Below, one piece after another: positions 8,491 to 63,699 of a stretch of DNA of 64,000 nucleotides. Position numbers and translations under genes: made by a program. Source of the DNA: Agrococcus sp. ProA11 (GTDB lineage Bacteria; Actinomycetota; Actinomycetes; Actinomycetales; Microbacteriaceae). How positions within the stretch are numbered: the first letter of the stretch is position 1; each line of letters opens with the position of its first letter. Where the stretch lies: the NCBI RefSeq assembly GCF_039880525.1, contig NZ_CP156989.1:1488001-1552000 (forward strand). Reading direction: 5' to 3'. The notes beneath the pieces are model-generated. The model searched no databases, was not told the origin of the DNA, and saw only the letters and a list, made by a program, of their open reading frames with translations.

Positions 8491-9428
8491 GCGTTCCGCA
8501 CCTTCGGGTTGAGGGCGCCGTAGACGACGTCGACGGTCAGATTGACGAGGACCACGAGGGCCACGGTGAACAGGAGGACGCCCATGATCACCTGGATGTC
8601 GCTGTTGCCGCTGGCAGAGATCGCCACCGATCCGATGCCCTGCAGGCCGAACACCCGCTCGATGATCGCGGCCCCGCTCATGGCGGCGATGAACTGCAGG
8701 GAGAGCATCGTGAGAGCGGGAGGCGCGGCGTTGCGCAGAACGTGGGTGAGCAGGATGTTCCGCGAGGGAAGCCCCCGGCTGCGCAGGGTTCTGATGTAGT
8801 CCTGGCTGTAGACGTTGATCACGGAGTTGCGAAGCTGCTGTGCGATCGCGGCGATCGACCCGATGGCGAGCGAGATCACCGGGAGGGTGATGCTGAGCAG
8901 CCAGTCGCTCGGAGAGTCGAAGATGTGGGTGTATCCGGTCGCGGGGAACCATTGCAGGTTCACGGCGAAGATGATCGCCAGGATGATCGCCACCCAGAAG
9001 TTCGGGAGCGCGAAACCGAGCACCATGATGACCTGCAGAAATCGATCGAAGCGCCCGGGCTTGATGGCGGCGACGAGCCCGAGCACGACGCCGACTGCGG
9101 CTGCGACGATGATGGCGCCGAGCGCGAGGGACACGGTGACGGGAAGTCTCGTGACGATCAGGTCGATGACTGGCGTGTTCTGCGCCGACGACATCCCGAG
9201 ATCTCCACGCAGGGCGTGGCCGAGCCAGTCGAGGTACTGCTCGACGATGGGACGGTCGAGACCGAGCTGCAGGCGGCGGGTCTCGACCTGCTCCTCCGTG
9301 GCATAGAGGCCGAGGGCGCCCCTGGCAGGGTCAGTGCCCGTGAGCTTCAGGAAGAAGAACATACCGGTCACCACAGCGAAGGCCAGGCCTATGCCCGCGG
9401 CGACGCGGCGCGCGATGAAGCGCAACAT
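8487..9428 (-). CDS. Dpp/Opp-type ABC transporter permease (DppB-like)
   Basis: 313 residues from ATG 9428, chosen because AAGGAG lies just upstream; the frame continues 51 bases further into the hairpin region without coding character. Six membrane helices are visible, the first being IARRVAAGIGLAFAVVTGMFF in character. It has the DppB-type periplasmic loop with the LGLDRPIVEQYLDWLGHALRGDLG block (about 60-85). The EAA-like loop (RSRGLPSRNILLTHVLRNA, about 210) contacts the ATPases. It pairs with the permease half of the downstream fusion. Confidence 0.92.
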   Translation of the reverse strand: MLRFIARRVAAGIGLAFAVVTGMFFFLKLTGTDPARGALGLYATEEQVETRRLQLGLDRPIVEQYLDWLGHALRGDLGMSSAQNTPVIDLIVTRLPVTVSLALGAIIVAAAVGVVLGLVAAIKPGRFDRFLQVIMVLGFALPNFWVAIILAIIFAVNLQWFPATGYTHIFDSPSDWLLSITLPVISLAIGSIAAIAQQLRNSVINVYSQDYIRTLRSRGLPSRNILLTHVLRNAAPPALTMLSLQFIAAMSGAAIIERVFGLQGIGSVAISASGNSDIQVIMGVLLFTVALVVLVNLTVDVVYGALNPKVRNA

Positions 9429-49244: not shown

Positions 49245-49864
49245 GACGCGCGACGCACATCCTCGGGCTGGATGCGCAGCAGGGCCGTGACGGTCGTGAT
49301 CACGTAGTGCGCGGTCTCCTCCTCGTAGCCGGCCCACACGGCCGATTGGGCACTGAGGCCGTCGGTGGCGCCCACCACGAAGCGAGCGAGCGCGAGCGGC
49401 TCCGGAGCGCTGAACGCACCGGCGGCGTGCCCTCGCGCGAAGATGTCCGCGACGAACTCCTCCCAGGCCCGCGCCTCCTCCACGAGCACCGCGGCGAGCT
49501 CGGCGTTGCGCCGTGACAGGCTCCAGCCGTCGAGCCACACGAGCGCGACATCGCGGCGGAAGTCGTGGATGAGCTCGCGCAGCAGCACGAGCACCTGCTC
49601 GACCTCGCCGCCCTCGACCGCGTCGACGCTCGCTCGTACGCTCGCGAGCTCCTCCTGAGCGATGTCGCGGAAGATGTCGGCGACCAGCAGTTCCATGCGG
49701 GTCACGTAGTGGGTGACCAGGGCGGGCGCGACGCCGACGCGATCGGCCACCGCGCGCTGTGTCACCGCGCTCAGGCCGGACTCGAGCGCGATCGAGCGAG
49801 CAGCGTCGTGCACTTCCGCGCGGCGCTGCTCGGGGGTCTTCCTGACACGCTTGTGGTTGGTCAT
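49238..49864 (-). CDS. TetR family transcriptional regulator
   Basis: 208 residues from ATG 49864, with AAGGAT upstream. The N-terminal helix-turn-helix (about 10-55) includes LSAVTQRAVADRVGVAPALVTHYVTRMELLVADIF by position. The C-terminal all-helical domain (about 80-200) is the ligand pocket. It sits between the amine oxidase/permease pair and the agmatine deiminase/amidase pair. Matching 22-bp dyads on both sides suggest it represses both units and senses a polyamine-related compound. Confidence 0.9.
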   Translation of the reverse strand: MTNHKRVRKTPEQRRAEVHDAARSIALESGLSAVTQRAVADRVGVAPALVTHYVTRMELLVADIFRDIAQEELASVRASVDAVEGGEVEQVLVLLRELIHDFRRDVALVWLDGWSLSRRNAELAAVLVEEARAWEEFVADIFARGHAAGAFSAPEPLALARFVVGATDGLSAQSAVWAGYEEETAHYVITTVTALLRIQPEDVRRASY

Positions 49865-49906
49865 TGCATCCTTGCTGGGTCCACAGTAACTTGTCGTACG
49901 ACCCGC

Positions 49907-49928
49907 TTATTGACCATAGTGTCAATTA
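49907..49928. promoter_or_regulatory. TetR-type operator 2 (divergent tetR/agmatine deiminase promoter)
   Basis: Dyad TTATTGAC-N6-GTCAATTA, 22 bp, arms matching at 7 of 8 positions, in the 90-base divergent region. It contains TTGAC words on both strands that could serve as -35 elements and covers CATAGT (49915-49920), a possible -10 for the deiminase gene. Same half-site as operator 1. Confidence 0.75.
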
Positions 49929-49954
49929 CGTCGACGACGACCCTGGAGGCGATC

Positions 49955-50980
49955 ATGGCCTGGACGATGCCCGCGGAATCCGCAGCGCACGAGCGGCTCT
50001 GGATGGCCTTCCCGCACGGACCGAATGCCGGCGAGACCTCGGCCGAGGCGGACGCCGCGCATCGCGCCTGGGCGGCCGTGGCCAACGCGGCCAGCGAGTT
50101 CGAGCCCGTCACCGTGGTGGTCGACCCCGACGAGCGCGATGTCGCCGGCCGGCTGCTCGCGGGCGACATCACGACGGTCGAGGCGCCGCTCGACGACGCG
50201 TGGATGCGCGACATCGGTCCCACGTTCGTGCTCGACGAGCAGGGCAGGCTCGGGGCCGTCGACTGGGTCTTCAACGGCTGGGGCGGCCAGGACTGGGCCA
50301 GCTGGGAGCATGACTCGCGCATCGCCGCGCTCGTCGCCGAGCAGGCCGGTGCCGAGCGCATCGCATCGCCGCTCGTCAACGAAGGCGGAGCCATCCACGT
50401 CGACGGTCACGGCACCGTGCTGCTCACCGAGACCGTGCAGCGCGATCCGGGCCGCAACCCCGGCATCTCGCGTGCCGACGTGGAGGCCGAGCTCGCGCGC
50501 ACGATCGGCGCGACGCATCCCATCTGGCTCCCGCGCGGCCTCACGCGCGACTATGAGCCCTTCGGCACCCGCGGTCACGTCGACATGGTCGCCTCGCTGG
50601 TCGGCGACGGTCGCGTGCTGCTGCATGTGCAGGCAGCCGACGAGCACCCGGACGCCGCGGTCTCGGCCGAGATCGAGCGCGTGCTGCGTGACGCGACCGA
50701 CGCCGCCGGTCGTCAGCTCGAGATCGTGCCGCTGCGAGCGCCCGCGACGCTGCGCGATGACGAGGGCTGGGTCGACTGGTCCTACGTGAACCACCTGATC
50801 CTGAACGACGGCATCCTCGCCTGCGGCTTCGGCGACCCGGCGGCAGATGCCGAGGCGCGCGAGGTGCTCGAGGCCGTCTACCCGGGCAGGCGCGCGGTGA
50901 CGGTCGATGCGCGCGAGATCTTCGCGCGCGGCGGCGGCATCCACTGCATCACGCAGCAGCAGCCGAAGGCCGCATCGTGA
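49955..50980 (+). CDS. aguA: Agmatine deiminase
   Basis: 341 residues from ATG 49955, with GGAGG 5 bases upstream. Peptidyl-arginine-deiminase-type fold with DDAWMRDIGPTFV (about 86-98), NGWGGQDW, GNEGGAIH-like VNEGGAIHVDG, GHVDMVASLV (catalytic His) and the catalytic Cys331 in GGGIHCITQQQP near the end. It converts agmatine to N-carbamoylputrescine. It is divergent from TetR, with a 22-bp dyad over its promoter, and coupled to the amidase by a GTGA overlap. Confidence 0.9.
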   Translation: MAWTMPAESAAHERLWMAFPHGPNAGETSAEADAAHRAWAAVANAASEFEPVTVVVDPDERDVAGRLLAGDITTVEAPLDDAWMRDIGPTFVLDEQGRLGAVDWVFNGWGGQDWASWEHDSRIAALVAEQAGAERIASPLVNEGGAIHVDGHGTVLLTETVQRDPGRNPGISRADVEAELARTIGATHPIWLPRGLTRDYEPFGTRGHVDMVASLVGDGRVLLHVQAADEHPDAAVSAEIERVLRDATDAAGRQLEIVPLRAPATLRDDEGWVDWSYVNHLILNDGILACGFGDPAADAEAREVLEAVYPGRRAVTVDAREIFARGGGIHCITQQQPKAAS

Positions 50981-52902
50981 GCGCGCGGCTCGTCGAGGCG
51001 AGCGTGCAGGCGCTGCGCGCCGCGCTCGACAGCGGCCGCACGAGCGCGACCGAGCTCGCCGCGCTCACCCTCGCGCGCATCGGGGCGTTCAGCGTGGGAG
51101 GTCCGCGCCTCAACGCCGTGCCCGTGCTCGCACCCGATGTGTTCGCCGCCGCGCGCGCCGCCGATGCGCGCATCCGTGCTGGCAGCCCGGCGAGCGTGCT
51201 CGACGGCATTCCCTACACGGCGAAGGAGAGCTACTCCGCGCGCGGCATGACCGTCTCGGCCGGCAGCCCGGCGTTCGAGCACCTCGTGGCGGGCGAGGAC
51301 GCGTTCGCGATCGAGCGGATGCGGGCGTCGGGCGCCGTGCTGATCGGGCTCACCACTATGCCCCCGATGGCGAACGGCGGCATGCAGCGAGGGCTGCGCG
51401 GCCGCGCCGAGAGCCCCTACAGCGCCGACTGGCTCACGAGCGCCTTCGGTTCGGGATCGTCGAACGGCTCCGGCACCGCGACGGCGGCGGGCATCGGCGT
51501 GATCGGGCTGGGCGAGGAGACCTGGTCGTCGGGCAGGGCGCCGGCGAGCTGCAACGCGCTCGTCGCCTACACGCCCTCCCGCGGCCTCATCTCGATGCGC
51601 GGCAACTGGGCACTCGTGCCGACGATGGATGTCGTGGTGCCGCACGCGCGCAGCATGGCCGATCTGCTCGCCGCACTCGACGTGCTCGTGCAGCCCGACG
51701 CCCGCACCGACGGCGACTTCTGGCGCGAGCAGCCGTGGCTGGCGCTGCCCGGCGTCGACGAGGTGCGCCCGGAGCGCTTCGCAGACCTGCAGCCGGCGGA
51801 GCTTGCCGGCATGACGATCGCCGTGCCGCGCATGTACATCGGCACCGACGAGGCGATCCGCTCCCCCATCGAGACCCGCGCGAGCGTGCTCGAGCTGTGG
51901 CGCGCGATGGCCGACGACCTGCGCGCCGCGGGCGCCACCGTGGTCGAGACCGATCTGCCGATCGTGTCGAACTACGAGGGCGACCGCGACGGCGCACCGC
52001 ACATCCTGAATCGCGGGATCGTGTCGCCGCGCTTCATCGAGAGCGAGCTGCGCGAGCTCGCGGTCTGGGCGTGGGACGCATTCCTGCGACGCAACGGCGA
52101 CCCCGCACTCGATCGGCTGCGCGACGTCGACGGCGAGCGCATCTTCCCGCATCCGCCCGGTGCGCTGCCCGATCGCTTCGAACGCTCGTCGCCCGCCTTC
52201 GAGCCGGCCGCGAACGCCGGCCTGGCCGACTTCCCCTCGCTGCCGGTGCCGGAGCTCGAGGAGATCCCCGCCATGGCCGAGGGCATTGCGGGGCTCGAAC
52301 AGACGCGCCGCGTCGACTGGGACGAGTGGCTCGACGCGCACGGCATCGATGCGGTCGTGATGCCGACGCTCGCCGACGTCGGTCCGGCCGACGCCGATGT
52401 CGAGCCCGACTCTGCGGCGCTCGCGTGGCGCAACGGCACCTGGGTCGCGAACGGCAACCTCGTCTGGCGCCACTTCGGCATCCCGACGGTCACCGTGCCG
52501 ATGGGCACCATGGGCGACATCGGGATGCCCGTCGGCCTCACGATCGCGGGCAAGCCGTACGAGGACGAGCGGCTGCTGCGCATCGGACTCGCGATCGAGG
52601 CGCAGCGCCAGCGGCGCACGACACCGCCGCGCACCCCCGAGCTGCCGGCGGCCGAGTGGACGCCGCTGGCGGCCGACGGCACCGCAGCCGAGGCGGCCGT
52701 CGAGCTCCACGTCGAGCGCGATGGCGACGAGCTCGTAGTGCACGGCCGAGCAACGGGCGAGGCGATCGCGCTGTGGGTCGACGGGACGCAGCCTGCGATC
52801 GCTGTCGATGGCGACACGTTCACCGCGCGTGCCGCGGGCAGCCTGGTCGTGGCGCTCGTGCGCGGCACGACGGGCGATGCGGGAGCGTGGGCGCAGGCGT
52901 GA
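50977..52902 (+). CDS. Amidase (amidase-signature family)
   Basis: 641 residues from GTG 50977, overlapping the deiminase stop. The Ser-cisSer-Lys machinery is visible: Lys in PYTAKES (about 79), the Gly/Ser-rich loop SGSSNGSGTATA (about 157-168) and the nucleophile region EETWSSGRAPAS (about 176-187). A C-terminal extension of about 80 residues (560-641) is beta-like and unrecognised, making it longer than typical ~450-500-residue amidases. It may hydrolyse N-carbamoylputrescine or another amide from agmatine breakdown, but this is inference from position. Confidence 0.87.
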   Translation: MSARLVEASVQALRAALDSGRTSATELAALTLARIGAFSVGGPRLNAVPVLAPDVFAAARAADARIRAGSPASVLDGIPYTAKESYSARGMTVSAGSPAFEHLVAGEDAFAIERMRASGAVLIGLTTMPPMANGGMQRGLRGRAESPYSADWLTSAFGSGSSNGSGTATAAGIGVIGLGEETWSSGRAPASCNALVAYTPSRGLISMRGNWALVPTMDVVVPHARSMADLLAALDVLVQPDARTDGDFWREQPWLALPGVDEVRPERFADLQPAELAGMTIAVPRMYIGTDEAIRSPIETRASVLELWRAMADDLRAAGATVVETDLPIVSNYEGDRDGAPHILNRGIVSPRFIESELRELAVWAWDAFLRRNGDPALDRLRDVDGERIFPHPPGALPDRFERSSPAFEPAANAGLADFPSLPVPELEEIPAMAEGIAGLEQTRRVDWDEWLDAHGIDAVVMPTLADVGPADADVEPDSAALAWRNGTWVANGNLVWRHFGIPTVTVPMGTMGDIGMPVGLTIAGKPYEDERLLRIGLAIEAQRQRRTTPPRTPELPAAEWTPLAADGTAAEAAVELHVERDGDELVVHGRATGEAIALWVDGTQPAIAVDGDTFTARAAGSLVVALVRGTTGDAGAWAQA

Positions 52903-52920: not shown

Positions 52921-53766
52921 TCAGCTTCGCGCTCGATTCGCCGCGTCTGCCGCGCGCAGGATCCGTTGCGCTCGCAGGCGCATCGCCTCGTCGACCATCT
53001 GCCCGTCGGCGAGCGTCGTGACGCCGCCGTCCGCAGCGTCGAGCGCATCGAGCACGGCGTGCGCCCACGCGCGGTCAGCATCGCTGGGGGCGAACGCTTG
53101 GCGGATGACGTCGATCTGCTTCGGGTGCACGGCCGTGCGGCCGCCGAAGCCGAGCGCGGCGCCGGCACGGCAGTCCTCCTCCAGCCCAGCCGGGTCGCCG
53201 ATCGCCGGGTAGACCGACATGAGCGGCGCATCGAGCCCCGCCGCGCGGACGGCGAGCACGAGCCGGATGCGCAGATGCTCCAGCATCGCGGGGCTCGACG
53301 AGCCCAGGTCGCTGCGCAGATCCGACTCCCCCAGCGCGACGGAGGCGACCGCGGGATGGGCCGCGATCGCGTCGAGGGCGGCGACACCGGCGGCGTCCTC
53401 GACGATCGCATGCAGCCGCCGGCTCGCGTCGCCGAGCTCGCCCACGATGCGGTCGAGCAGGTCGATGCCTGCCTTCGGCACCCGCAGGCCGACGTCGAAG
53501 CGCCCGGCGACGGCGAGGTCGCCGATGTCGCCGAGGCGCACCTGCAGCTGCACGGTGCTGGTCCGAAGTTGCACAGGCGCGTCCTCGTGCTGCCGTTCCC
53601 CGGCGCTGTGGTCGAGCAGGAAGCGCTCCACGGCCGCACGGGCCTCGGCCTTCCGGTCGCCCGCGACGGCATCCTCGAGGTCGAGGATCACGATGTCGGC
53701 GCCCGAGCGCATGGCCTTGTCGAATCGGTCGGGTCGATCGCCCGGCACGTACAGCGCGACGGTCAT
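52921..53766 (-). CDS. HpcH/HpaI (CitE-like) CoA-ester lyase 2
   Basis: 281 residues, last gene of the LacI-controlled operon. It shares the N-terminal [14 protein letters not shown] and the metal-binding [12 protein letters not shown] with lyase 1 at 35917-36753, and the C-terminal GFGGRTAVHPKQID with the wider family. CitE-like lyases cleave malyl-, citramalyl- or related CoA esters. Following a CaiB-type CoA-transferase (4-base overlap), it could cleave an acid that the transferase activates. The actual substrate is unknown. It is convergent with the amidase gene (18 bases). Confidence 0.87.
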   Translation of the reverse strand: MTVALYVPGDRPDRFDKAMRSGADIVILDLEDAVAGDRKAEARAAVERFLLDHSAGERQHEDAPVQLRTSTVQLQVRLGDIGDLAVAGRFDVGLRVPKAGIDLLDRIVGELGDASRRLHAIVEDAAGVAALDAIAAHPAVASVALGESDLRSDLGSSSPAMLEHLRIRLVLAVRAAGLDAPLMSVYPAIGDPAGLEEDCRAGAALGFGGRTAVHPKQIDVIRQAFAPSDADRAWAHAVLDALDAADGGVTTLADGQMVDEAMRLRAQRILRAADAANRARS

Positions 53767-54950
53767 ACGATGCCTCGCTCCCGCAGCGCCGCTGCCTGCT
53801 CGGCGGTGACCCCGAGCTCGGCGAGCACCGCATCGGTGTCCTCGCCGTGACGGCGGCCGGTGTGGCGCACCTGCCCGGGCGTCGCCGACATCCGGAACAG
53901 CACGTTCTGCATGCGGATCTCCCCCAACTCCGGATCATCGATCGGCAGGATCGTGCCGAGCGAGTCGTACTGCGGGTTCGCCATCACGCCGGTGATGTCG
54001 TCGACGACGCCGATGGCGGCCTCGGCGCGCCCGAACGCGGCGACCACCTCGGCGAGCGGCCGCGCCGCGATCCATCCGCCCACCGCCGCGTCGAGCTCGT
54101 CCACGTGCTCGACGCGGGTGCTGCCGGAGGCGAACCAGGGCTCGTCGATGAAGTCGGCCCTGCCGACGAGTGTCACAACGCGCTCTGCGATCGACTGCGA
54201 GGAGGTCGAGACAGCCACCCAGCGATCATCGGCCGTGCGGTAGACGTTGCGGGGCGCGTTGTTCACGGAGCGGTTGCCCACTCGCGGCTGCACCAGGCCG
54301 AGCTGGTCGTAGGCCGTGATCTGCCCGCCGAGCAGCATGAGGATCGGCTCGATGATCGCCATGTCGACCACCTGACCCTCGCCCGTGCGCTCGGCGTGAC
54401 GCAGCGCGATCGCGCAGGCGTAGGCGGTGGCGAGCGCCGTGATGCCGTCGGCCAGCCCGAACGGGGGCAGGATGGGCGGCCCGTCGGGCTCGCCCGTGAT
54501 CGCGGCGAAGCCGCTCATCGCCTCCGCGATCGAGCCGAAGCCCGGCTGCTGCGCGAGCGGGCCGTGCTGGCCGAAGGCCGTCACGCGCGCGATCACGAGC
54601 GCCGGGTTGACCTCGAGCAGGCGGTCGGGCGAGAGCCCCCAGCGCTCGAGCGTGCCGGGGCGGAAGTTCTCGATCAGCACGTCGGCGCCCGCGACGAGCC
54701 GCAGCAGCACCTCGGCGCCCTCGGGCTGCTTCAGGTCGAGCGTGACGGTGCGCTTGCCGCGGCCGAGCGTCTTCCACCACAGGTTCACGCCCTCCTTCGC
54801 TGGCCCGTGGCCGCGCGAGGCGTCCGGCCGGCGGGGATGCTCGACCTTGATGACGTCGGCCCCGAAGTCGCCGAGGAAGGTCGCCGCGAGCGGCCCGGCG
54901 AAGAGCGTGGAGACATCGAGCACCCGCACGCCCTCGAGCGGTCCGCTCAC
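53763..54950 (-). CDS. CaiB/BaiF (family III) CoA-transferase
   Basis: 395 residues from GTG 54950 (GTGA overlap with the upstream gene). N-terminal PLEGVRVLDVSTLFAGPLAA (by position 4-23), FGADVIKVEHPRRPDASRG, LDLKQPEGAEVLLRLV and the catalytic Asp168 in LADGITAL are all family hallmarks. These enzymes move CoA between carboxylic acids, for example from succinyl-CoA. In this operon it could activate a dicarboxylic or hydroxy acid for the lyase encoded next, as in citramalate or itaconate routes. That is inference. Confidence 0.9.
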   Translation of the reverse strand: MSGPLEGVRVLDVSTLFAGPLAATFLGDFGADVIKVEHPRRPDASRGHGPAKEGVNLWWKTLGRGKRTVTLDLKQPEGAEVLLRLVAGADVLIENFRPGTLERWGLSPDRLLEVNPALVIARVTAFGQHGPLAQQPGFGSIAEAMSGFAAITGEPDGPPILPPFGLADGITALATAYACAIALRHAERTGEGQVVDMAIIEPILMLLGGQITAYDQLGLVQPRVGNRSVNNAPRNVYRTADDRWVAVSTSSQSIAERVVTLVGRADFIDEPWFASGSTRVEHVDELDAAVGGWIAARPLAEVVAAFGRAEAAIGVVDDITGVMANPQYDSLGTILPIDDPELGEIRMQNVLFRMSATPGQVRHTGRRHGEDTDAVLAELGVTAEQAAALRERGIV

Positions 54951-56917
54951 GATGCCTGCTCCGCATCCCAGGCGAGCCGGAAGCCGATGGCCGGGCTGCG
55001 GTCGATGCCGGTGCGCAGCCACGCGAGCGAGCGCTCGGGCGGCTGCTCGCCGCCGTCGGCGTACCAGTCGGATCCGGTGACGGCGCGGTCGCTGCCGCCC
55101 TTGAGGATCACGCGGCGGGTGATGCCGTCGGTCATCTCGCTCTCCGTCCAGTTCCAGACCCGCGGGCTGCGGCGCTCCAGCATCGCACCCGCGAGCTGCC
55201 ACTCGTGGTCGGTGGGGAGTCGGGCGCCCACGGCGGCCGCGAAGGCGCGCGCCTCGTCGAGGTCGATGCCGCTGACGGGCGCGTCGGCGTCGCCGTCGCG
55301 CCGGGCGAGGCCCGCCCGATCGCACTCGGCGTTCCACTCGGCCACGCTCACCTCGCGCAGCGCGACCGCTGCGGGGCCGACCTCTGCCGTGACGGCGATC
55401 CGGCGGTCGTCGTGCAGGCGGGGCGGCAGCGGCTTCCACTCCTCCACGTAGGGCGCCTCGCCATAGAGGCCGGTCTCGCGGCGGCGCCACAGCACCGCGA
55501 GCTCGTGCGTGCCGGCAGGCACCGCCACCGCATCGTGCGGTGGCCGGGCGGTCGACTGCGGCGTCGGGATGCGCGAGGTGGCGCGAGCCGGGAAGGTCGC
55601 GTCCTGCGAGCGGTCGTCGGCGCGGGCCGCCTCCAGCAGCGGTCCGACCCAGTCGGGCCGCTCGCCGCGCACGGCGAGCACGGCGGCGATGCCGTGCGCG
55701 GGAACGACCACCTCGCCGTCGGTCGGCTCACCCCGCAGGAGATCGACCAGCGCGCCCTCGAGCGGCGCGAGGAACCGGCCGCGCACCGGCTCGTCGCCAC
55801 GATTGATGAGCGTCACGAGCGTCAGGTCGCCGAGCGCCCAGGTGGTGCCGAAGACGCCGCGGTCCGCGGCCTCCGCCGTCGCGCCCGCGAGCGGCTGCCA
55901 GTCGCCGCGCTCGAGCAGCTCGTGGCAGGCGCGCTGCACGCGCGACATGGCGCGCAGGGTGGCGCGGTCACGCTCGTTCCAGCCGACCCACACGCCGAAC
56001 ACCGCATCCCACACCAGCACGCCCGTGCCGTTCATCCACGCGGACTGCAGCTCCTCCGCGTGCGAGCGGTTCCAGCGGCGGATGCCGTGCAGCATGTGGC
56101 GACGCTCGACGAGCCGGGCGCGCTGCACGCCGGGCGCGGTCGAGTCGGCGAACCACTGCGCCCACGACAGCACGTGGTCGCGGAGCCGCTCGTTGGGCGC
56201 ACGCGACTCCCCCTCGAGCGCGAGCGGTCGGTCGCCGCCGACCGCGTCGAGGAACGCCGGGTCGGCCTGCTTCAGGGTGTCGAGGAAGACGCCCTCGGCG
56301 CCGAGCTCATCCGCGAGGCGCCGCAGCGCCTCGCCGTCCGTCAGCTCGCGGCCGGCGTCGTCGGTCTCGCGGCGCGTGCCGACATCCCACGGGTTGTAGT
56401 CGAGGAAGACGCGCACGCCGGCGGCCTTGAGGTCGGCCACGAGTGCCGCGAGCCCCGGCACCTCGCGGTACCAGTCGAACTGATTGCGGGCGTCGATGCC
56501 GATGCACGGGTAGGCGTGCCAGAGCACGAGCCCGTCGAGCCCGCCGACGCCCTCATAGGCAGCCAGCAGCCGCTCGGGCGTGAAGGTGCGCGCGCGCCAA
56601 TCCCACAGCCGCTCGTCCCAGAGCCAGATCTGCGCCGCCACGCGGCATCCGGATGCCCACGGCACCCGGTCGTAGGCGGCGTCGTCGTGCGCGAGCCGGC
56701 GCCGTGCATCGACGGCCAGACGCTCGAGCTCCGCGCGCCAGGCGGGCCAGCGCGCCGGGTCGGCGGGCGCGGCGAGGATCTTCGCGATGTCGAAGTCGGC
56801 CTCTGCCAGCGGCACGCCGCCCTCGTCGGGCAGCGGCACCGCCGTCGGCAGGTCGATCGGTCGAGGGACCAGCGGGTCGATGGTGTTGGTGGGCGCCTCG
56901 TCGGGGTCGGGGATCAT
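54947..56917 (-). CDS. Glycosidase-like TIM barrel fused to an FGE-like C-terminal domain
   Basis: 656 residues from ATG 56917. Residues about 60-350 look like a glycoside hydrolase-type barrel: DGLVLWHAYPCIGIDARNQFDWYREV (by position, about 128-153), VRVFLDYNPWD, GVFLDTLKQ and LALEGESRAP supply acidic residues at strand ends. A beta-sandwich-like part follows. Residues about 520-656 match the formylglycine-generating-enzyme/SUMF1 fold: RLPTDHEWQLAGA, RVWNWTESE, VILKGGS and IGFRLAWD. No Cys occurs in the last ~100 residues, so it cannot be a catalytic FGE and is probably a binding domain. No signal peptide is seen. Confidence 0.75.
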   Translation of the reverse strand: MIPDPDEAPTNTIDPLVPRPIDLPTAVPLPDEGGVPLAEADFDIAKILAAPADPARWPAWRAELERLAVDARRRLAHDDAAYDRVPWASGCRVAAQIWLWDERLWDWRARTFTPERLLAAYEGVGGLDGLVLWHAYPCIGIDARNQFDWYREVPGLAALVADLKAAGVRVFLDYNPWDVGTRRETDDAGRELTDGEALRRLADELGAEGVFLDTLKQADPAFLDAVGGDRPLALEGESRAPNERLRDHVLSWAQWFADSTAPGVQRARLVERRHMLHGIRRWNRSHAEELQSAWMNGTGVLVWDAVFGVWVGWNERDRATLRAMSRVQRACHELLERGDWQPLAGATAEAADRGVFGTTWALGDLTLVTLINRGDEPVRGRFLAPLEGALVDLLRGEPTDGEVVVPAHGIAAVLAVRGERPDWVGPLLEAARADDRSQDATFPARATSRIPTPQSTARPPHDAVAVPAGTHELAVLWRRRETGLYGEAPYVEEWKPLPPRLHDDRRIAVTAEVGPAAVALREVSVAEWNAECDRAGLARRDGDADAPVSGIDLDEARAFAAAVGARLPTDHEWQLAGAMLERRSPRVWNWTESEMTDGITRRVILKGGSDRAVTGSDWYADGGEQPPERSLAWLRTGIDRSPAIGFRLAWDAEQAS

Positions 56918-58293
56918 GCGCGCGCCTCCGCGAGGGCGAGCGTGCGCGCCGCCAGCTCATCGAAGCGGATGCCGTCGAAGCCCGCGAGCGTCGTGCGGTA
57001 GACGCCGTGGATGGGCGCAGCGAGCTCGCCAGGGATCACGCTCGTGCCGGCGGCGCCGAGCAGACCGCCGACGCTCGCGCCCACCGAATCGGTGTCCCAG
57101 CCGCCCGCGACCGCCAGACCGACGCCGCGCGAGAAGTCGCCGTGCCCGCGCAGCGCCGCGAACGCCAGCAGCGCGGTGTTGTTCAGCACGTGCACCCAGT
57201 GCAGGTGGCCGTAGGCGCGGTGCAGCTCGTCGAGGCACGCGTCGTCGTCGAGCTCGGATGCGGCGAGGTCGCGCCCGAGCCGGGCGGCCGCGGCGAGCCT
57301 GGAGTCGTGCGGCACGGCAGCGATGCCGGCATCGATCGCCGCGTCCACGCCGGCGCCGGCGATCGCGATCGAGGCGGCAGCGGCCATGAAGACCGCGCCG
57401 TGCACGCCCGCGCGGCGGTGCGTGAGGCGCGCATCCGCCACCGCGAGCCGCGCGGCGGCGCCCGGTTCGCCCGGGTGGGCCCAACCATAGGCGTCGGTGC
57501 GGATGAGCGCGCCGATCCAGTCGACGAACGGGTTGCCGCGCTCGGCGGCGATGTGCGGCTCGTCGCCGGCGAGCAGGTTGCGGTAGGCGATGCGCTCGGC
57601 GGTGAAGACCCGCCCGGCGGGCAGCTGCTCGAGCCACAGCTGCGCGATCGCCGCGGTGTCGACCGCGCGCCCGCCAGCGGAGCGCGCGCGCTCCTGGGCG
57701 ACCAGTGCGAGCACCGCGAAGTTCAGGTCGTCGTCCTCCGGCATGCCGTCGATGACGCCGTCGAGGCTGGTCGGGCGTGACCGACGGTTCCACGGCCAGC
57801 GCTCGGCGACTGCGGGGTCGAGCCCGGCCTCCGTGAAGTAGCCGCGGATGGGCCAGCGCCCGGTGGATTCGGCGATCGCGCGGATGCCCTCCCGCGGGAT
57901 CTTCTCGACCGGCTTGCCGATGAGGCAGCCGATCGCTCGCCCGAGCCACGCGCCGCGCAGCCGATCCTCCAGCCCGGCGGCGACCTGCGTGCGAGGCAAC
58001 TCGAGCGCCATGGTCTCCAGCGCATCCGGCTCGGCGGCGAGCAGCGCGGCGGGCCGCGGCAGCAGCGTCGCCGCGGCGGTGACGCGCGCCGCGACCGCGC
58101 GCAGCTCGGCGTCGGCCGGGTGCGGGGTGGCGCCGTTCACGGGTGCGTCGAGGCTGCCGCCGGCCGCGGTCAGCTCGGCCTCGAGCTCGCGCACGTCGAG
58201 GCCGTCGAGGCGTGCCGCGGCGAGCGCGTGCGCGGCCAGATCCTCCGGCTGGGTCCAGCTCAGTCGCAGCATCGGCTGGGCGGTGCCTGTCAC
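56914..58293 (-). CDS. ADP-ribosylglycohydrolase family protein 2
   Basis: 459 residues from GTG 58293, which overlaps the previous stop (GTGA). The first ~110 residues are a helical extension. The DraG-type all-helical core follows: GAWLGRAIGCLIGKPVEKI (about 112-130), the metal-binding PEDDDLNFAVLAL (about 178) and AGGWDTDSVGASVGGLLGA near 400. These Asp positions bind two Mg2+/Mn2+ ions. Family members remove ADP-ribose or act on other ribosyl compounds. In sugar-ABC operons, small-molecule ribosides are plausible substrates. Inference only. Confidence 0.85.
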   Translation of the reverse strand: MTGTAQPMLRLSWTQPEDLAAHALAAARLDGLDVRELEAELTAAGGSLDAPVNGATPHPADAELRAVAARVTAAATLLPRPAALLAAEPDALETMALELPRTQVAAGLEDRLRGAWLGRAIGCLIGKPVEKIPREGIRAIAESTGRWPIRGYFTEAGLDPAVAERWPWNRRSRPTSLDGVIDGMPEDDDLNFAVLALVAQERARSAGGRAVDTAAIAQLWLEQLPAGRVFTAERIAYRNLLAGDEPHIAAERGNPFVDWIGALIRTDAYGWAHPGEPGAAARLAVADARLTHRRAGVHGAVFMAAAASIAIAGAGVDAAIDAGIAAVPHDSRLAAAARLGRDLAASELDDDACLDELHRAYGHLHWVHVLNNTALLAFAALRGHGDFSRGVGLAVAGGWDTDSVGASVGGLLGAAGTSVIPGELAAPIHGVYRTTLAGFDGIRFDELAARTLALAEARA

Positions 58294-59441
58294 CGGTCGA
58301 GACCGAGGGCCGCGACCGCGCTGCTGCGGGCTGCGTGGCGCTCGGCGTCCGCCGACCAGACTGCTGCGGCGACGTCGGCGATCACTGCGCCCGGGGCCCG
58401 CAGGTCGAGGCGGGAGGCCTCGCCCACGGCGTCGATCCATTCCGCCGGCACCGCGTCGGGCCCGCCCAGCGCGCCGGCGATGGTGCCCGCCATGACCGCG
58501 ATCGAGTCGGAGTCCCTGCCGTAGTTGACCGCACCGAGCACCGCCTCGCGGTAGTCGCCGTCGCAGGCGGCTAGCAGGCCGAGCGCCACCGGCAGCTCCT
58601 CGATCGCCTTCGTGCGGCTCGGCAGCCGCGCATCCATCGCCGGCTGCCGATACGTCTCGCCGACCGTGTCGTACGGGCGTACGGCGTCGCGCAGCGCGGC
58701 GAGCCCGCCGTCGCGCCATCCGTCCAGCCGCCGGCCGGCCTCGACCGTCGCCTCGACCGCGGCGCGGGTGCCGTCGCGGGCGAGCCCGATGGCGGCGTCG
58801 AGCACGCCGTCGATCGTCGCGCCGGGAGCGGCGGCGGCGGCGACCGCGGCCGCGAAGACGCCCGCGGCCTCCCTGCCGTAGCTCGACTGGTGCGCGCCGG
58901 CGATGTCGATCGCCTCCGCGTAGGCGCCCTGCGCATCCCCCGCGTTGACGAGGCCCACGGGCCCCATGTACATGGTGGCGCCGCAGTTGACGACATTGCC
59001 GACGCCTGCCTCGCGGGGGTCGATGTGGCCGTAGTGCAGGCGCGCGACGAGCCACTTCTCGGCGAGGAAGACGCGGTGGAGCGGCAGCGCCTCGGCCTCG
59101 AGCTCCGGGATCCACTGCACCTCACCGATCATCCTGGGCACCAGGTGCTCGGCGATGTCGTGTGCCGTGAGGTGGCGTCGCACGTGCGCGTAGACGTCGA
59201 CCAGCAGGTTCGTCATCAGGGTGTCGTCCGTGACGTGCCCGTCGCCCTTGTGGTACGGCGCGATAGGTCTGGCGTGGCGCCAGTCGTCCAGGAACGGCCC
59301 GACGATCCCCTCGATCGTGCCCCCGTAGCGCTGCTGGATGGCTTCGGGCGTGTTGCCCTCGGCTGCGCCGCCGAGTGCGTCGCCGACGGCGGCGCCTGCG
59401 AGGGCTGCGGTCGCGACATCCTGGAATGCTGCGGCGTTCAT
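58290..59441 (-). CDS. ADP-ribosylglycohydrolase family protein 1
   Basis: 383 residues. DraG-family core: AALAGAAVGDALGGAAEG (about 12-29), GHVTDDTLMTNLL with paired metal Asp (about 67-80), and NYGRDSDSIAVMAGTIAGALGG (about 325-345). It has no long N-terminal extension, unlike protein 2. The two are paralogues arranged in tandem with a 4-base overlap. The ribosome site is GGAG before ATG 59441. It is the first enzyme gene after the ABC transporter, so it probably acts on the imported compound. A 12-bp hairpin precedes it. Confidence 0.87.
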   Translation of the reverse strand: MNAAAFQDVATAALAGAAVGDALGGAAEGNTPEAIQQRYGGTIEGIVGPFLDDWRHARPIAPYHKGDGHVTDDTLMTNLLVDVYAHVRRHLTAHDIAEHLVPRMIGEVQWIPELEAEALPLHRVFLAEKWLVARLHYGHIDPREAGVGNVVNCGATMYMGPVGLVNAGDAQGAYAEAIDIAGAHQSSYGREAAGVFAAAVAAAAAPGATIDGVLDAAIGLARDGTRAAVEATVEAGRRLDGWRDGGLAALRDAVRPYDTVGETYRQPAMDARLPSRTKAIEELPVALGLLAACDGDYREAVLGAVNYGRDSDSIAVMAGTIAGALGGPDAVPAEWIDAVGEASRLDLRAPGAVIADVAAAVWSADAERHAARSSAVAALGLDR

Positions 59442-59475
59442 GTCTCTCCGATCGATGGGTGCGGATGCGCCGGGC

Positions 59476-59507
59476 GGCCGGGCAGGGACTGCTGCCCCTG
59501 CCCGGCC
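59476..59507 (-). terminator. Hairpin after the binding-protein gene
   Basis: Perfect 12-base arms (59476-59487 and 59496-59507) with an 8-base loop, just after the binding-protein stop (59515) and before the first hydrolase gene. As in the Dpp-type operon at 9451-9481, it may limit read-through or stabilise the upstream mRNA. Confidence 0.6.
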
Positions 59508-59514
59508 GGGGTGA

Positions 59515-60813
59515 CTACTGGATCGATTCCCAGCCCTCGGTCAACTGGGCTTCCAGCTCCTCGAGGCTGATGGAGTCGGCGAGGTACTGCTGGAACGCAG
59601 GGGTCGCGTACTGGTCCTTCCACTGCGGGTAGTTGACCGCGAGCTGGAACGGCGCTGCCTCGAGCACCTCGCCGGAGACGAGCATCTCGGTCCAGCCGGT
59701 CTGGCCCTCGGTCGCCTCGGCGAGCGCGTCGCGAGCCGCGCCGGTCGCGGGGATCAGCGCGTCGCCCTGACCCACGGTCGCGAGGTGCTCTGCCTGCATG
59801 TAGTAGTTGATGAACTCGGCTGCGCGGTCGACGTACTGCGAGTCGGCCGAGACCGAGAGCGTCTGCGGCGACGTGCCCTGTGCGGCGCTGTCGCTGCCTG
59901 CCAGCGGCGGCAGCACGGTCCACTCGAAGCCCTCGGGCGCGGTGTCGGCGATCTGCTGCGCGAGGTACGAGCCGCCGATGTACATGCCGTAGGTGCCACC
60001 CAGGAAGCCCGGGAGCACGTCGCCGCCCGACTGCGTGAGCGTGATCGGGTCGAGCGACTCATCCTCGTAGGCCATCGCGTGGACGGTCTGCGGCAGCGCG
60101 AGCTCCTCCTCGCCGATGTCGATGGTGGCCTCGCCGTCCTCGTCGACCTCGAAGTAGGTGCCGTCCTCGCCGAGGGCGAGGTTCATGAACGGCGCCGTGG
60201 GCGACTTCAGGCCCCAGCCGAGCCCGTAGGTGTCGTCAGCCGTGAGCTCTTGCGCGATCGCACGCAGGTCCTCCCAGGCGAGCGACTCGCCGGAGGGCAC
60301 CTCGACGCCCGCTTCCTCGAACGCGCCGGTGTTGGCGAACGCCACGTAGGACTGCATGAGCGTCGGTGCTCCGAAGATCTCGTCGTTCGCCGAGACCGCG
60401 GTCCAGATGCCGTCGGCCACGTCGCCGCGGATCTCGTCGCTGAGATACGGCGTCAGGTCGGCGAGGTAGCCGTCGTGCGCGAAGCCGGCCATGTCGGAGG
60501 CCTCGTTATGGATGATGTCGGGTGCGTCGCCGCCCTGGAACTGCGTCACGAGCTGGTCGTGCACGTTGTCCCAGGAGCCCTGCACGAGGTCGATCTGCGT
60601 CTCGGGGTGCTCCTCGTTCCACGACGAGACGATCTCCTCGGTCGCGGCGATGGTGGCGTCCTGGAACGCGAGCGACTGGAAGGTGAGCGTCACCTCTTCC
60701 ATGGGGTCGGTGGTTTCGGTGGCCGCGGGTGCCGAGCCGCCGCCGAAGGCGCAGCCGGTGAGCAGCAGGCCACCCGCTGCGAGCGCCAGAGCGGCGCGGG
60801 ATGTGCGGTGCAT
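59515..60813 (-). CDS. Sugar ABC transporter substrate-binding lipoprotein, family 1
   Basis: 432 residues from ATG 60813, with AAGGAG upstream. Lipoprotein signal with LTGC at 18-21 (Cys21), then an Ala/Gly-rich tether. The body is a MalE-like family 1 binding protein: VTLTFQSLAFQDATIAATEEIVSSWNEEHPETQIDLV by position (about 44-80), GGDAPDIIHNEASDMAGF, and GSYLAQQIADTAPEGFEWTVLPPL. It captures an oligosaccharide-like or riboside-like ligand outside the cell for the MalFG-type permeases. Confidence 0.92.
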   Translation of the reverse strand: MHRTSRAALALAAGGLLLTGCAFGGGSAPAATETTDPMEEVTLTFQSLAFQDATIAATEEIVSSWNEEHPETQIDLVQGSWDNVHDQLVTQFQGGDAPDIIHNEASDMAGFAHDGYLADLTPYLSDEIRGDVADGIWTAVSANDEIFGAPTLMQSYVAFANTGAFEEAGVEVPSGESLAWEDLRAIAQELTADDTYGLGWGLKSPTAPFMNLALGEDGTYFEVDEDGEATIDIGEEELALPQTVHAMAYEDESLDPITLTQSGGDVLPGFLGGTYGMYIGGSYLAQQIADTAPEGFEWTVLPPLAGSDSAAQGTSPQTLSVSADSQYVDRAAEFINYYMQAEHLATVGQGDALIPATGAARDALAEATEGQTGWTEMLVSGEVLEAAPFQLAVNYPQWKDQYATPAFQQYLADSISLEELEAQLTEGWESIQ

Positions 60814-60858
60814 GAGATCTCCTTGGGTGATGGGGGTGAGGGTGGGTTGGGTGGTCGG

Positions 60859-61698
60859 TCAGCCCTTGACGGCGCCAGAGAGCAGGCCCGACGTGAGGCG
60901 TCGTTGGATCAGGGCGAAGAAGAACAGGCTCGGGATGGCTGCCAGCAGCGAGGCCGCGGCGAGCTGCCCCAGCTGCACCTGGCCCTCCGCGCCCACGAAC
61001 AGCGCAAGCCGTTGCGGCAGCGTCTGCAGCGCCTCGTCCTTGATCAGCACGAGGGCGAAGAAGAACTCATTCCAGGCGCCGATGAAGGCGAAGAGGCTGG
61101 TGGCGACGAGGCCGGGCGCGAGCAGCGGCAGCACGATCGAGACGAGCACGCGCCACTTGGGCGCGCCGTCCATGGCGCCCGCCTCCTCGAGGTCGACCGG
61201 GATCGAGGCGACGTAGCCCTGCAGCATCCAGAGCGCGAACGGCAGCGACCAGACGACGTAGACCACCACGAGCCCGCCGAGCGAGTTGCCGAGGCCGAGC
61301 GGCTGCAGCATCAGGTAGAGCGGGATGATGATGAGGATGAAGGGGAACACCTGCGAGAGCAGGATCCAGCCGGTGGCGAGCTTGCGCAGCCGCGTGCGGA
61401 AGCGGGCCAGGGCGTAGGCGGCCGGCAGCGAGATCACGGTGACGATGAGCGTGGTCGTGAGCGCCACGAGCAGGCTGTTGCCCGCCGCCTGCACCAGGTT
61501 GGCCCGGTCGATGGCAGCGACGAAGTTGTCGAGGTTCCACTGCGCGGGCAGCAGCTGCGGATCGGGCGACTGCAGCTCGCGCTGCGTCTTGAACGCGGTC
61601 GTGAACAGGAACAGCAGCGGGAACGCCAGGAAGATCATGAACAGCGTCACGGCGACGTACTGCAGGGCTCGGCCGAGCCGGAAGGTGCGCTTCGTCAT
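60859..61698 (-). CDS. Carbohydrate ABC transporter permease (MalG-like)
   Basis: 279 residues, six membrane helices. The EAA loop EEAGAMDGAPKWRVLVSIVLPLLAPGLVA (by position, about 170-200) is the ATPase contact of MalG-type permeases. The N-terminal helix is preceded by a basic leader. It overlaps the MalF-like gene by 4 bases. No ATPase gene is present in the operon, so it must share an MsiK-type ATPase encoded elsewhere, as is usual for actinobacterial sugar importers. Confidence 0.92.
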   Translation of the reverse strand: MTKRTFRLGRALQYVAVTLFMIFLAFPLLFLFTTAFKTQRELQSPDPQLLPAQWNLDNFVAAIDRANLVQAAGNSLLVALTTTLIVTVISLPAAYALARFRTRLRKLATGWILLSQVFPFILIIIPLYLMLQPLGLGNSLGGLVVVYVVWSLPFALWMLQGYVASIPVDLEEAGAMDGAPKWRVLVSIVLPLLAPGLVATSLFAFIGAWNEFFFALVLIKDEALQTLPQRLALFVGAEGQVQLGQLAAASLLAAIPSLFFFALIQRRLTSGLLSGAVKG

Positions 61699-62612
61699 GA
61701 CTCACTTCCCCTCGCCTGCGCGCGCAGATAGAAGAAGAGGAAGAACGCGATGACGATCACGATGACGTTGCCCATGGCGCTCGCGAGCCCGAAGTTGCCG
61801 TAGCGGAACGCCTCGTTGTAGGCGAAGAGCATCGGCAGCATCGTGCCCCAGGCCCCGGCGGTCAGCACATAGACCAGCGCGAACGAGTTGAAGTTGTTGA
61901 TGAAGTCGAGCGTGGTGATCGCGATGATGACCGGCTTGATCGCCGGCAGCGTCACCGAGAAGAACCGCTGCCAGGTGCCTGCACCGTCGATCTGCGCCGC
62001 CTCGTGCAGCTCGGCGTTCACGCCCTGGAGCCCGGCGAGCAGCGTGATGGTCGTCTGCGGCATGCCCGCCCAGACGCCCACCACGATCGCGGCCGGCAGC
62101 GCCGTCGAGGCCTGGCCGAGCCAGTTGATGGAGTCGGGCAGGCCGACCGCGCCCAAGCCGCCGTTCACGGCCCCGTAGGTCGGGTGCAGCATGAGCCGCC
62201 ACATGATCGCGATGATCACCGGCGGCATGGCCCACGGGATGAGCGCGAGGGTGCGCGCCACGCCCTGGCCCCACAGGTTGGCGTTCAGCAGCAGCGCGAG
62301 CGAGAGCGAGGCGACGAACTGGATGATCGTCACCGAGAACGCCCAGATCAGCCCGATCCCGAACGAGTTCCAGAACAGGTCGTAGCCCGCCAGGTCGACG
62401 TAGTTCTGCAGCCCGTTGAACTCGGTGACGGCATTGCGTCCGGCGGTCGCGTTCGTGAAGCCCAGCACGATGCCCTGCATGAGCGGCCAGACGCTGAACA
62501 TCAGGATCGGCAGCATCGCCGGCAGGAAGAGCAGCCAGGCGCCCCGCTCCTGGGAGATCCTGCGCCGCTTGCCGAGCTTCCGCTCGGCGACGGTCACATC
62601 GACGGGCGTCAT
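61695..62612 (-). CDS. Sugar ABC transporter permease (MalF-like)
   Basis: 305 residues, six membrane helices. A basic leader (KLGKRRRISQ) precedes WLLFLPAMLPILMFSVWPL. The EAA loop ELHEAAQIDGAGTWQRFFSVTLPAIKPVI (by position, about 195-225) is intact. It forms the channel with the MalG-like protein. It is coupled to the LacI repressor gene upstream by an ATGA overlap, so repressor and transporter are made from one message. Confidence 0.92.
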   Translation of the reverse strand: MTPVDVTVAERKLGKRRRISQERGAWLLFLPAMLPILMFSVWPLMQGIVLGFTNATAGRNAVTEFNGLQNYVDLAGYDLFWNSFGIGLIWAFSVTIIQFVASLSLALLLNANLWGQGVARTLALIPWAMPPVIIAIMWRLMLHPTYGAVNGGLGAVGLPDSINWLGQASTALPAAIVVGVWAGMPQTTITLLAGLQGVNAELHEAAQIDGAGTWQRFFSVTLPAIKPVIIAITTLDFINNFNSFALVYVLTAGAWGTMLPMLFAYNEAFRYGNFGLASAMGNVIVIVIAFFLFFYLRAQARGSES

Positions 62613-63631
62613 CCGCGCACCTTCCGGGTTGTGGACTCGCGCACCGCGAGCCGGGGTTCGACGATCGCGTGCGTCGTCGCGGTGCGGTCGCCGCCGATCG
62701 CGGCGAGCAGCTGCTGCGCGGCGAGCGTGCCGCGGGCCTCAGCGCCGAGGTCGACGCTCGTCAGGCTGGGGATCGCGATCTCCGCGAGCTCGGTGTTGTC
62801 CATGCCGACCACCAGGCACTCGTCGGGCACCGCGATGCCGCGGTCTGCCAGCACGCGCAGGGCGGCGAACGCGATGAGGTCGTTCGCCGCGACGATCGCG
62901 TCGATCGCGGGCGCACCGGAGAGGCGCTCGAGGAGGGTGTGCACCGCCGGCAGCGCCGCCGCGTGCGTGAAGTCGTCGGCCGCGATCTCGAGGTCGGGGT
63001 CGACCGGCAGCGCCGCGGCGGCGAGCGCCGAGCGGTAGCCCTCAAGGCGGAGCCGCCCGGGCGTCGTGTCGACCGGGCCGTTGACGAATGCGATCCGCCT
63101 GGCGCCCTGCTCGATCAGGTGGTCGATCGCGAGCCCGACGCCGGCGCGCGAATCCGCGCCCACGGCACCATGCGCGGCGGTCGCGGGCAGCGTCCCGATC
63201 ACGACGACCGGCACCCGCGACTGCGCGAGCGCCTCGAGCACCTGCGGCTCGGGGCGCAGCGGCACGACGATGAGGCCGTCGACCGTGCTCGGGTCGAAGC
63301 GCTGGATGGCCGCCGCCACCGCCGACGCGTCCTGCGCCTGCGCCACGAGCAGCTGGCGCTCGTCACCCGCGAGCTCGTGCTGCACCGCGCTCGTCATCCG
63401 CGCGTAGACGGGGTTGGCGGCATCCGGCACGATCATCGCGATCTGCCCGGTGCGACCGGCCTGCAGCGCCCTGGCGACCGCGTTCGGTCGGTAGCCGAGC
63501 TCGGCGGCGACGGCGCGCACGCGCTCGGCGGTGGCCGGGGATGCGCCCTCGCCGTGCAGCGCTCGGCTGGCCGTGGCGATGGAGACGCCGGCACGCTCGG
63601 CGACGGCTGCGATCGTGGGGCTGCTCGCCAT
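62609..63631 (-). CDS. LacI family transcriptional repressor
   Basis: 340 residues from ATG 63631, which has GGAG 5 bases upstream; earlier in-frame ATGs would put the N-terminus across the operator. The LacI helix-turn-helix is TIAAVAERAGVSIATASRAL (about 6-25), followed by the hinge AVARALQAGRTGQIAMIVPD and a periplasmic-binding-protein-like effector domain to the end. It is first gene of the 63.6-52.9 kb operon. A perfect 14-bp LacI-type palindrome upstream indicates autoregulation by an inducer related to the imported sugar. Confidence 0.92.
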   Translation of the reverse strand: MASSPTIAAVAERAGVSIATASRALHGEGASPATAERVRAVAAELGYRPNAVARALQAGRTGQIAMIVPDAANPVYARMTSAVQHELAGDERQLLVAQAQDASAVAAAIQRFDPSTVDGLIVVPLRPEPQVLEALAQSRVPVVVIGTLPATAAHGAVGADSRAGVGLAIDHLIEQGARRIAFVNGPVDTTPGRLRLEGYRSALAAAALPVDPDLEIAADDFTHAAALPAVHTLLERLSGAPAIDAIVAANDLIAFAALRVLADRGIAVPDECLVVGMDNTELAEIAIPSLTSVDLGAEARGTLAAQQLLAAIGGDRTATTHAIVEPRLAVRESTTRKVRG

Positions 63632-63685: not shown

Positions 63686-63699
63686 TGGAAACGTTTCCA
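63686..63699. promoter_or_regulatory. LacI-family operator
   Basis: Perfect palindrome TGGAAACGTTTCCA, matching the general LacI/GalR-family operator form with a central CG. It lies 55 bases upstream of the LacI start and should control the whole operon. Confidence 0.85.

Follow-up and report, generated by a model that had tools for sequence, protein, structure and literature searches.

Why would a bacterium place two ADP-ribosylglycohydrolase-family proteins in one operon with a sugar importer, a coenzyme A (CoA) transferase and a CitE-like lyase? The question is raised by a locus of Agrococcus sp. ProA11 in a window of 64,000 nucleotides, positions 1488001-1552000 of a single-contig genome of 2,665,899 bases (contig NZ_CP156989.1), where nine genes, every one of them confirmed, run on the minus strand from 63631 to 52921. 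We tentatively propose, as a reading that is plausible rather than probable, that the operon could be devoted to the breakdown of a ribofuranoside to which a beta-hydroxy dicarboxylic acid is attached, the acid being of the citramalate, 3-hydroxy-3-methylglutarate (HMG) or malate type. More guardedly, we suspect that its DraG-fold proteins, of which relatives have up to four, may be glycosidases for small ribofuranosides, coupled to CoA-dependent breakdown of the acid, rather than enzymes of protein de-ADP-ribosylation. The features, in window coordinates, are listed below; ABC stands for ATP-binding cassette, TIM for triose-phosphate isomerase and FGE for formylglycine-generating enzyme.

63686-63699, no strand: LacI-type operator TGGAAACGTTTCCA, a perfect palindrome upstream of the operon
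62609-63631, minus: LacI-family repressor (PF00356 and PF13377 over cut-off)
61695-62612, minus: ABC permease 1, UgpA/MalF-like (PF00528)
60859-61698, minus: ABC permease 2, GlcU/MalG-like (PF00528)
59515-60813, minus: extracellular solute-binding protein (PF01547)
58290-59441, minus: DraG_A, ADP-ribosylglycohydrolase family (PF03747, 154.6 bits, cut-off 26.2)
56914-58293, minus: DraG_B, ADP-ribosylglycohydrolase family, with about 110 residues preceding the domain (PF03747, 142.5 bits, cut-off 26.2)
54947-56917, minus: fusion protein of 656 residues, with a predicted TIM barrel, a beta-rich region and an FGE-like tail (structure model; PF03781, tail only)
53763-54950, minus: CaiB, family III CoA-transferase (PF02515, 387.6 bits, cut-off 23.3)
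52921-53766, minus: CitE/HpcH-like beta-hydroxyacyl-CoA lyase (PF03328, 82.2 bits, cut-off 25)

Operon layout and operator

All nine proteins reach Pfam cut-offs, the fusion through its FGE-like tail only. The first-pass annotation, made from the letters of the window, had described nine genes behind one LacI operator, most of them overlapping by 4 bases, and this picture holds: the overlaps are found at six of the eight junctions, the remaining two being gaps of 45 bases before the binding protein gene and 73 bases before DraG_A, and the palindrome TGGAAACGTTTCCA has a single exact copy in the whole 2.67 Mb genome. The arrangement thus supports the view that the nine genes are one expression unit. 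A LacI-type site, scored as present at 10 or more of 14 bases, was found in 67 of 71 loci within a span that begins 250 bases ahead of lacI and ends 60 bases inside it, and in none of the same-size stretches at the binding protein gene of those 71 loci. The repressor itself scores below the curated cut-offs of the GntR, RbsR and UriR models.

Conservation of the gene set

The fusion gene is held by 8 of 60 close genomes (own included) and by 6 of 24 within the genus, and the operon is therefore an accessory unit. Where it occurs it is kept whole: the gene-order search in other actinobacteria that the first-pass annotation had suggested recovered the complete nine-gene set, its order unchanged, from all seven other fusion-bearing close genomes, two of which add a PfkB kinase that reads as a ribokinase. 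A wider scan of named genomes gave 252 fusion relatives, of which the best 80 loci, with titles naming actinobacteria, were retained; 11 had too little flank for an order count, and among the other 69 the order permease, permease, binding protein, DraG_A, DraG_B, fusion, CaiB, CitE is found in 67, with LacI in 68 and a ribokinase in 56. The grouping is therefore not chance. Pairwise protein distances of the eight genes over 64 loci (16 of the 80 dropped) correlate at 0.85-0.96, which shows joint descent of the eight genes, although these values also contain the shared ancestry of the species tree. A search of the phylum with the fusion profile, in which at most three candidates were scored per genome, matched 121 of 396 genomes, among the matches listed only in the FGE-like part except for the genome's own protein, and says little on full-length relatives. 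Clustering of the other open reading frames near the 80 loci gave an esterase as the sole useful cluster.

A second survey, led by DraG_A, identifies the part of the operon that is kept most strictly. DraG_A is present in 62 of the 394 genomes of a class-wide draw (own included; E 1e-40 or better). Forty of these loci were fetched and 36, those with more than 6.5 kb downstream, were counted (4 of 40 dropped): DraG_B occurs in 35, CaiB with CitE in 34, the ribokinase in 27 and the fusion in 6, and CaiB and CitE are present without the fusion in 28. The tightest core is therefore DraG_A, DraG_B, CaiB and CitE, often joined by the ribokinase; importer and fusion vary. A related binding protein was not seen in 21 of the 36 loci, 20 of them from one large-genome genus and the other being L181; a contig end lies within 2 kb upstream in L181 and L208. 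In L180 (3252-12143) CaiB and CitE stand ahead of LacI, not at the end, and a second weak DraG_B match follows DraG_B.

The idea that the CoA-transferase/lyase pair and the transporter/hydrolase set are never conserved together, which the first-pass annotation had named as fatal to its reading, is contradicted by both surveys, where co-conservation is strong. A fortuitous operon whose members share no pathway would agree with the fact that we know of no published biochemistry connecting these classes of enzyme. However, the order is kept in nearly all fusion-led loci, the pair recurs when the survey starts from DraG_A instead of the fusion, and the set is also met on alphaproteobacterial plasmids, so that chance assembly is very hard to credit.

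The DraG_A-led loci also hold further hydrolase-like genes. In 34 of the 40 loci (L182-L192, L196-L207, L209-L219) two of them, sharing the strand of DraG_A, come shortly before it, and one more locus has one. The first type, C, belongs to PF03747 (scanned in one locus); the second, D, looks like the same family, as assigned by eye. Up to four hydrolase-type genes are found together, with exact adjacency read in L196, where types C and D occupy 7243-9215 (DraG_A orientation) directly after the binding protein, and in Nonomuraea L130; in the other loci the extra genes were counted as lying on the same strand within 4.5 kb.

DraG_A matched 28 plasmid records, of which 11 of rhizobial type and the Nonomuraea record were read. 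The seven annotated rhizobial records (L132-L136, L139, L140) have LacI, two permeases and a binding protein ahead of the DraG genes, several genes being broken in L140. Five of the 11 (L135, L136, L140, L141, L142) combine DraG_A and DraG_B with CaiB and CitE, the latter two placed after an ATPase gene. L134 has a ribokinase, as does L138 on the opposite strand, and L133 has DraG_A and no DraG_B. The DraG_B of L134 and of L135 (10021-12120) continues for about 400 residues after the domain with no Pfam match. On a Mycolicibacterium arabiense plasmid (L131, 6640-14242) we found LacI, one ADP-ribosylglycohydrolase, an importer, a ribokinase and an ATPase, without CaiB and CitE, possibly a simpler riboside operon.

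Hydrolases, kinase, importer and fusion protein

The ADP-ribosylglycohydrolase family carries acidic metal-binding motifs near both domain ends. In DraG_A the motifs TDDT and RDSDS are invariant in 8 rows, in DraG_B PEDDD and GWDTDS are kept in 8 rows, and the C-terminal motif of the DraG proteins aligns with solved DraG-type chains. No PF03747 genes other than these two were found in this genome. Against NCBIfam, DraG_A scores 44.2 bits with dinitro_DRAG (cut-off 337) and DraG_B has no match.

Could these proteins serve salvage, acting on ADP-ribosylated or nucleoside-like compounds while CaiB and CitE handle a separate acid? Membership of PF03747 is in keeping with this, as is the Mycolicibacterium plasmid L131, and in Escherichia coli yegTUV a nucleoside-type transporter goes with an ADP-ribosylglycohydrolase and a sugar kinase (available part of PMC10819704). 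However, CaiB and CitE stand beside DraG_A in nearly all loci of the DraG_A-led survey, mostly without the fusion, and the binding protein leans to maltose- and chitobiose-type models. Salvage therefore seems improbable to us.

In relatives the ribokinase gene lies between DraG_B and the fusion, where read. Its 59-row consensus keeps GSaNvD, GGKGaN, qlEiP and AGD, which we take to correspond to the residues of E. coli RbsK that contact ribose and serve catalysis, and one operon kinase searched against the PDB was closest to ribokinases. The window's own operon has no ribokinase gene; a 40% relative is encoded elsewhere in this genome. The presence of the kinase in most relatives' loci supports a riboside. 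The importer is a maltose-type carbohydrate ABC importer made of the binding protein and two permeases (PF01547, PF00528); its binding protein scores below the cut-offs of the maltose- and chitobiose-type models, and no ATPase gene is present in the operon, the best match elsewhere in the genome having 56% identity.

The fusion could act on a further sugar. No Pfam family matched its first approximately 450 residues, no convincing Pfam model emerged for the N-terminal barrel in any of 61 members even at E values as high as 5, and against the PDB it found a designed protein (E 0.0007) and otherwise chance-level matches. A structure model built from 8 rows was poor (predicted local distance difference test, pLDDT, 62.7). 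A model from 61 rows reached pLDDT 87.8 and a predicted template modelling score of 0.89, being least certain near residues 241-260, and has eight strands in barrel order (starts 93, 129, 169, 209, 233, 250, 274 and 299), a beta-rich region at 355-416 and the FGE-like tail. In it Asp213 follows strand 4 and Glu237 follows strand 5; both are invariant in the 61 rows, and equally in a set of 10 rows with members from two other phyla. Asp on strand 4 with Glu on strand 5 is the layout of the alpha-amylase clan, which the fusion may share, and the N-terminus reads as a predicted TIM barrel whose strands 4 and 5 end in acidic residues, an arrangement that would suit a glycosidase.

A formylglycine-generating enzyme needs a catalytic cysteine pair near its C-terminus, and no such pair was found in the tails of the 61 rows (55 matched the search pattern, two with one cysteine; the other 6, judged by eye, have at most one cysteine before GFR). 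Formylglycine-type activity of this tail, which the first-pass annotation had called FGE-like, is therefore not supported and was rejected, and a role in binding or structure is more likely. The broader claim of that annotation, that importer, hydrolases and a glycosidase-like enzyme process a glycoside or riboside, finds support in the ribokinase of relatives, and the predicted barrel would agree with it. Its interpretation as a whole is partly supported; uronic or aldonic glycosides, suggested as substrates, gained no specific support.

The CoA steps and the candidate substrate

Asp168 of CaiB, which we take to be the catalytic aspartate, is invariant in 8 rows, as are Arg77, Glu123 and Asp149 of CitE, whose counterparts in Rv2498c, judged by eye, are Arg64, Glu112 and Asp138. 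CitE does not reach the equivalog cut-offs of the citrate lyase beta chain (TIGR01588; 96.3 bits, cut-off 443.4) or of the citramalyl-CoA lyase RipC (NF038242; 145.7 bits, cut-off 375). Where Rv2498c has Ala136, all 12 actinobacterial rows have Glu147 (matched by eye) and one rhizobial row differs, which may point to a different acid. According to the available part of its description, Rv2498c cleaves (S)-citramalyl-CoA as well as (R)-HMG-CoA, malyl-CoA being a far poorer substrate (PMC6689899).

If the DraG-fold proteins were non-hydrolytic and converted a sugar acid, CaiB and CitE could instead charge and split the sugar carbon itself. Up to four DraG-type genes in most DraG_A-led loci (one type assigned by eye) would be many for one glycosidic bond, and Glu147 of the actinobacterial lyases, though not of the rhizobial row, could also be read this way. 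However, DraG_A and DraG_B keep the acidic metal motifs typical of the hydrolase family and the ribokinase would be left without a role, and we regard this scheme as quite improbable.

Of the 80 fusion-led loci, 20 have an esterase relative close to the operon: after CitE in 18, between the fusion and CaiB in L092 (scanned, PF00756) and at the position of CaiB and CitE in L026. By a crude count, 14 of the 20 have a signal-like hydrophobic start. Three further loci have an esterase on the opposite strand, before LacI. Its recurrence speaks for a substrate in which an acid is attached through an ester bond. This evidence would also suit a pathway for acylated plant glycosides, in which the acid is an ester decoration (e.g., HMG or malyl) removed by the esterase and the furanose may be a sugar other than ribose, such as apiose; the ability of Rv2498c, a CitE relative, to cleave both of its substrates is compatible with such a decoration (available part of PMC6689899). 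However, no esterase was seen in the other 60 of the 80 loci (some short) nor beside CitE in the window, and the operon kinase of relatives resembles a true ribokinase; we consider this route unlikely.

If the substrate is a ribofuranoside and its acid is of the citramalate, HMG or malate type, this would explain the kinase, the DraG genes, the esterase and the presence of CaiB and CitE with no hydratase. The ribokinase speaks for ribose, and CaiB-CitE together with the recurrent esterase speaks for the acid. Gene content, order, operator and predicted structure are computed, and the catalytic steps that follow are inferred from family and context. LacI would repress the operon via the single operator observed. 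The binding protein and the two permeases would import the glycoside using the ATPase encoded elsewhere, and, in genomes that encode it, the TIM-barrel fusion would trim a glycosyl unit. DraG_A and DraG_B, as putative metal-dependent ribofuranosidases, would release ribose, which would be phosphorylated by the ribokinase, encoded in the operon of most relatives and elsewhere here. The acid, glycoside- or ester-bound, would be charged with CoA by CaiB, and the CitE-like lyase would split the acyl-CoA to acetyl-CoA and a keto acid or glyoxylate. Importer and fusion would be suited to whichever form of the compound is encountered.

Several observations weigh against this proposal. The 20 loci of the large-genome genus have no relative of the window's importer beside the core (one contig ends about 2 kb upstream). 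CaiB and CitE are missing from L197 and L214, from Nonomuraea L130, from 5 of the 11 rhizobial records (L132, L133, L134, L138, L139) and from Cryobacterium tepidiphilum (L026), where the esterase takes their place; L137 has CaiB without CitE, and Nocardiopsis coralli (L063) lacks DraG_A, CaiB and CitE. None of CitE, CaiB and DraG_A reaches an NCBIfam equivalog cut-off and DraG_B has no match there, and known functions are therefore not transferable. We know of no proven DraG-family activity on small free ribosides, and no natural ribofuranoside with such an acid was found among the literature matches listed. A secreted esterase would fit only if the freed acid is also imported.

Ribose and nucleoside catabolic operons with a LacI-type repressor and a ribokinase exist, and share with this one the regulator, an importer and, in most relatives, the kinase; here the importer is of the maltose type, DraG-family enzymes replace the known nucleosidases, and CaiB and CitE are added. 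Proteins of the SUMF1/EgtB/PvdO family resemble the fusion in the FGE-like C-terminal domain (PF03781), whereas the fusion lacks the cysteine pair and is joined to a barrel without a Pfam family. The itaconate dissimilation pathway is not known to include a glycosidase part. Its lyase step (RipC/Rv2498c) is alike in that CoA activation precedes a CitE-like lyase with catalytic Arg, Glu and Asp in common (by eye; available part of PMC6689899). It differs in a hydratase, whose gene is absent from this operon, and in the low RipC score. The nearest analogue found is E. coli yegTUV under YegW/GgaR, whose gene functions are stated as unknown in the accessible part of PMC10819704. As described there, it likewise combines a transporter, an ADP-ribosylglycohydrolase family protein and a sugar kinase (here found in relatives) in one repressed operon, but the transporter is of another type, the hydrolase gene is single, and a CoA-transferase or lyase is not part of the set.

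No description of this gene set, or of a pathway for this hydrolase family, was found among the matches listed in the open-access literature by title or abstract start; most subscription papers lie outside that literature. ADP-ribosylglycohydrolase genes are usually interpreted as serving protein de-ADP-ribosylation, and a widely conserved operon joining them with sugar import, a ribokinase and a CoA-transferase/lyase pair offers a testable alternative role. To our knowledge, nobody has named the compound implied by the operon as a nutrient. If the proposal is true, a common ribofuranoside-acid of soil and plant habitats is still to be identified.

Relatives of the fusion also occur in other settings. 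On a plasmid of Sphingopyxis sp. FD7 (L128, 77-8379) one is accompanied by a TonB receptor, a ribokinase, a GH127-family protein and CaiB, with no DraG genes in the stretch read, and on a Spirosoma plasmid another lies amid other sugar genes. Downstream of the operon in the window, an amidase gene, preceded by a gene matching PAD_porph (Pfam), is convergent with the CitE end (49565-52902, plus strand).

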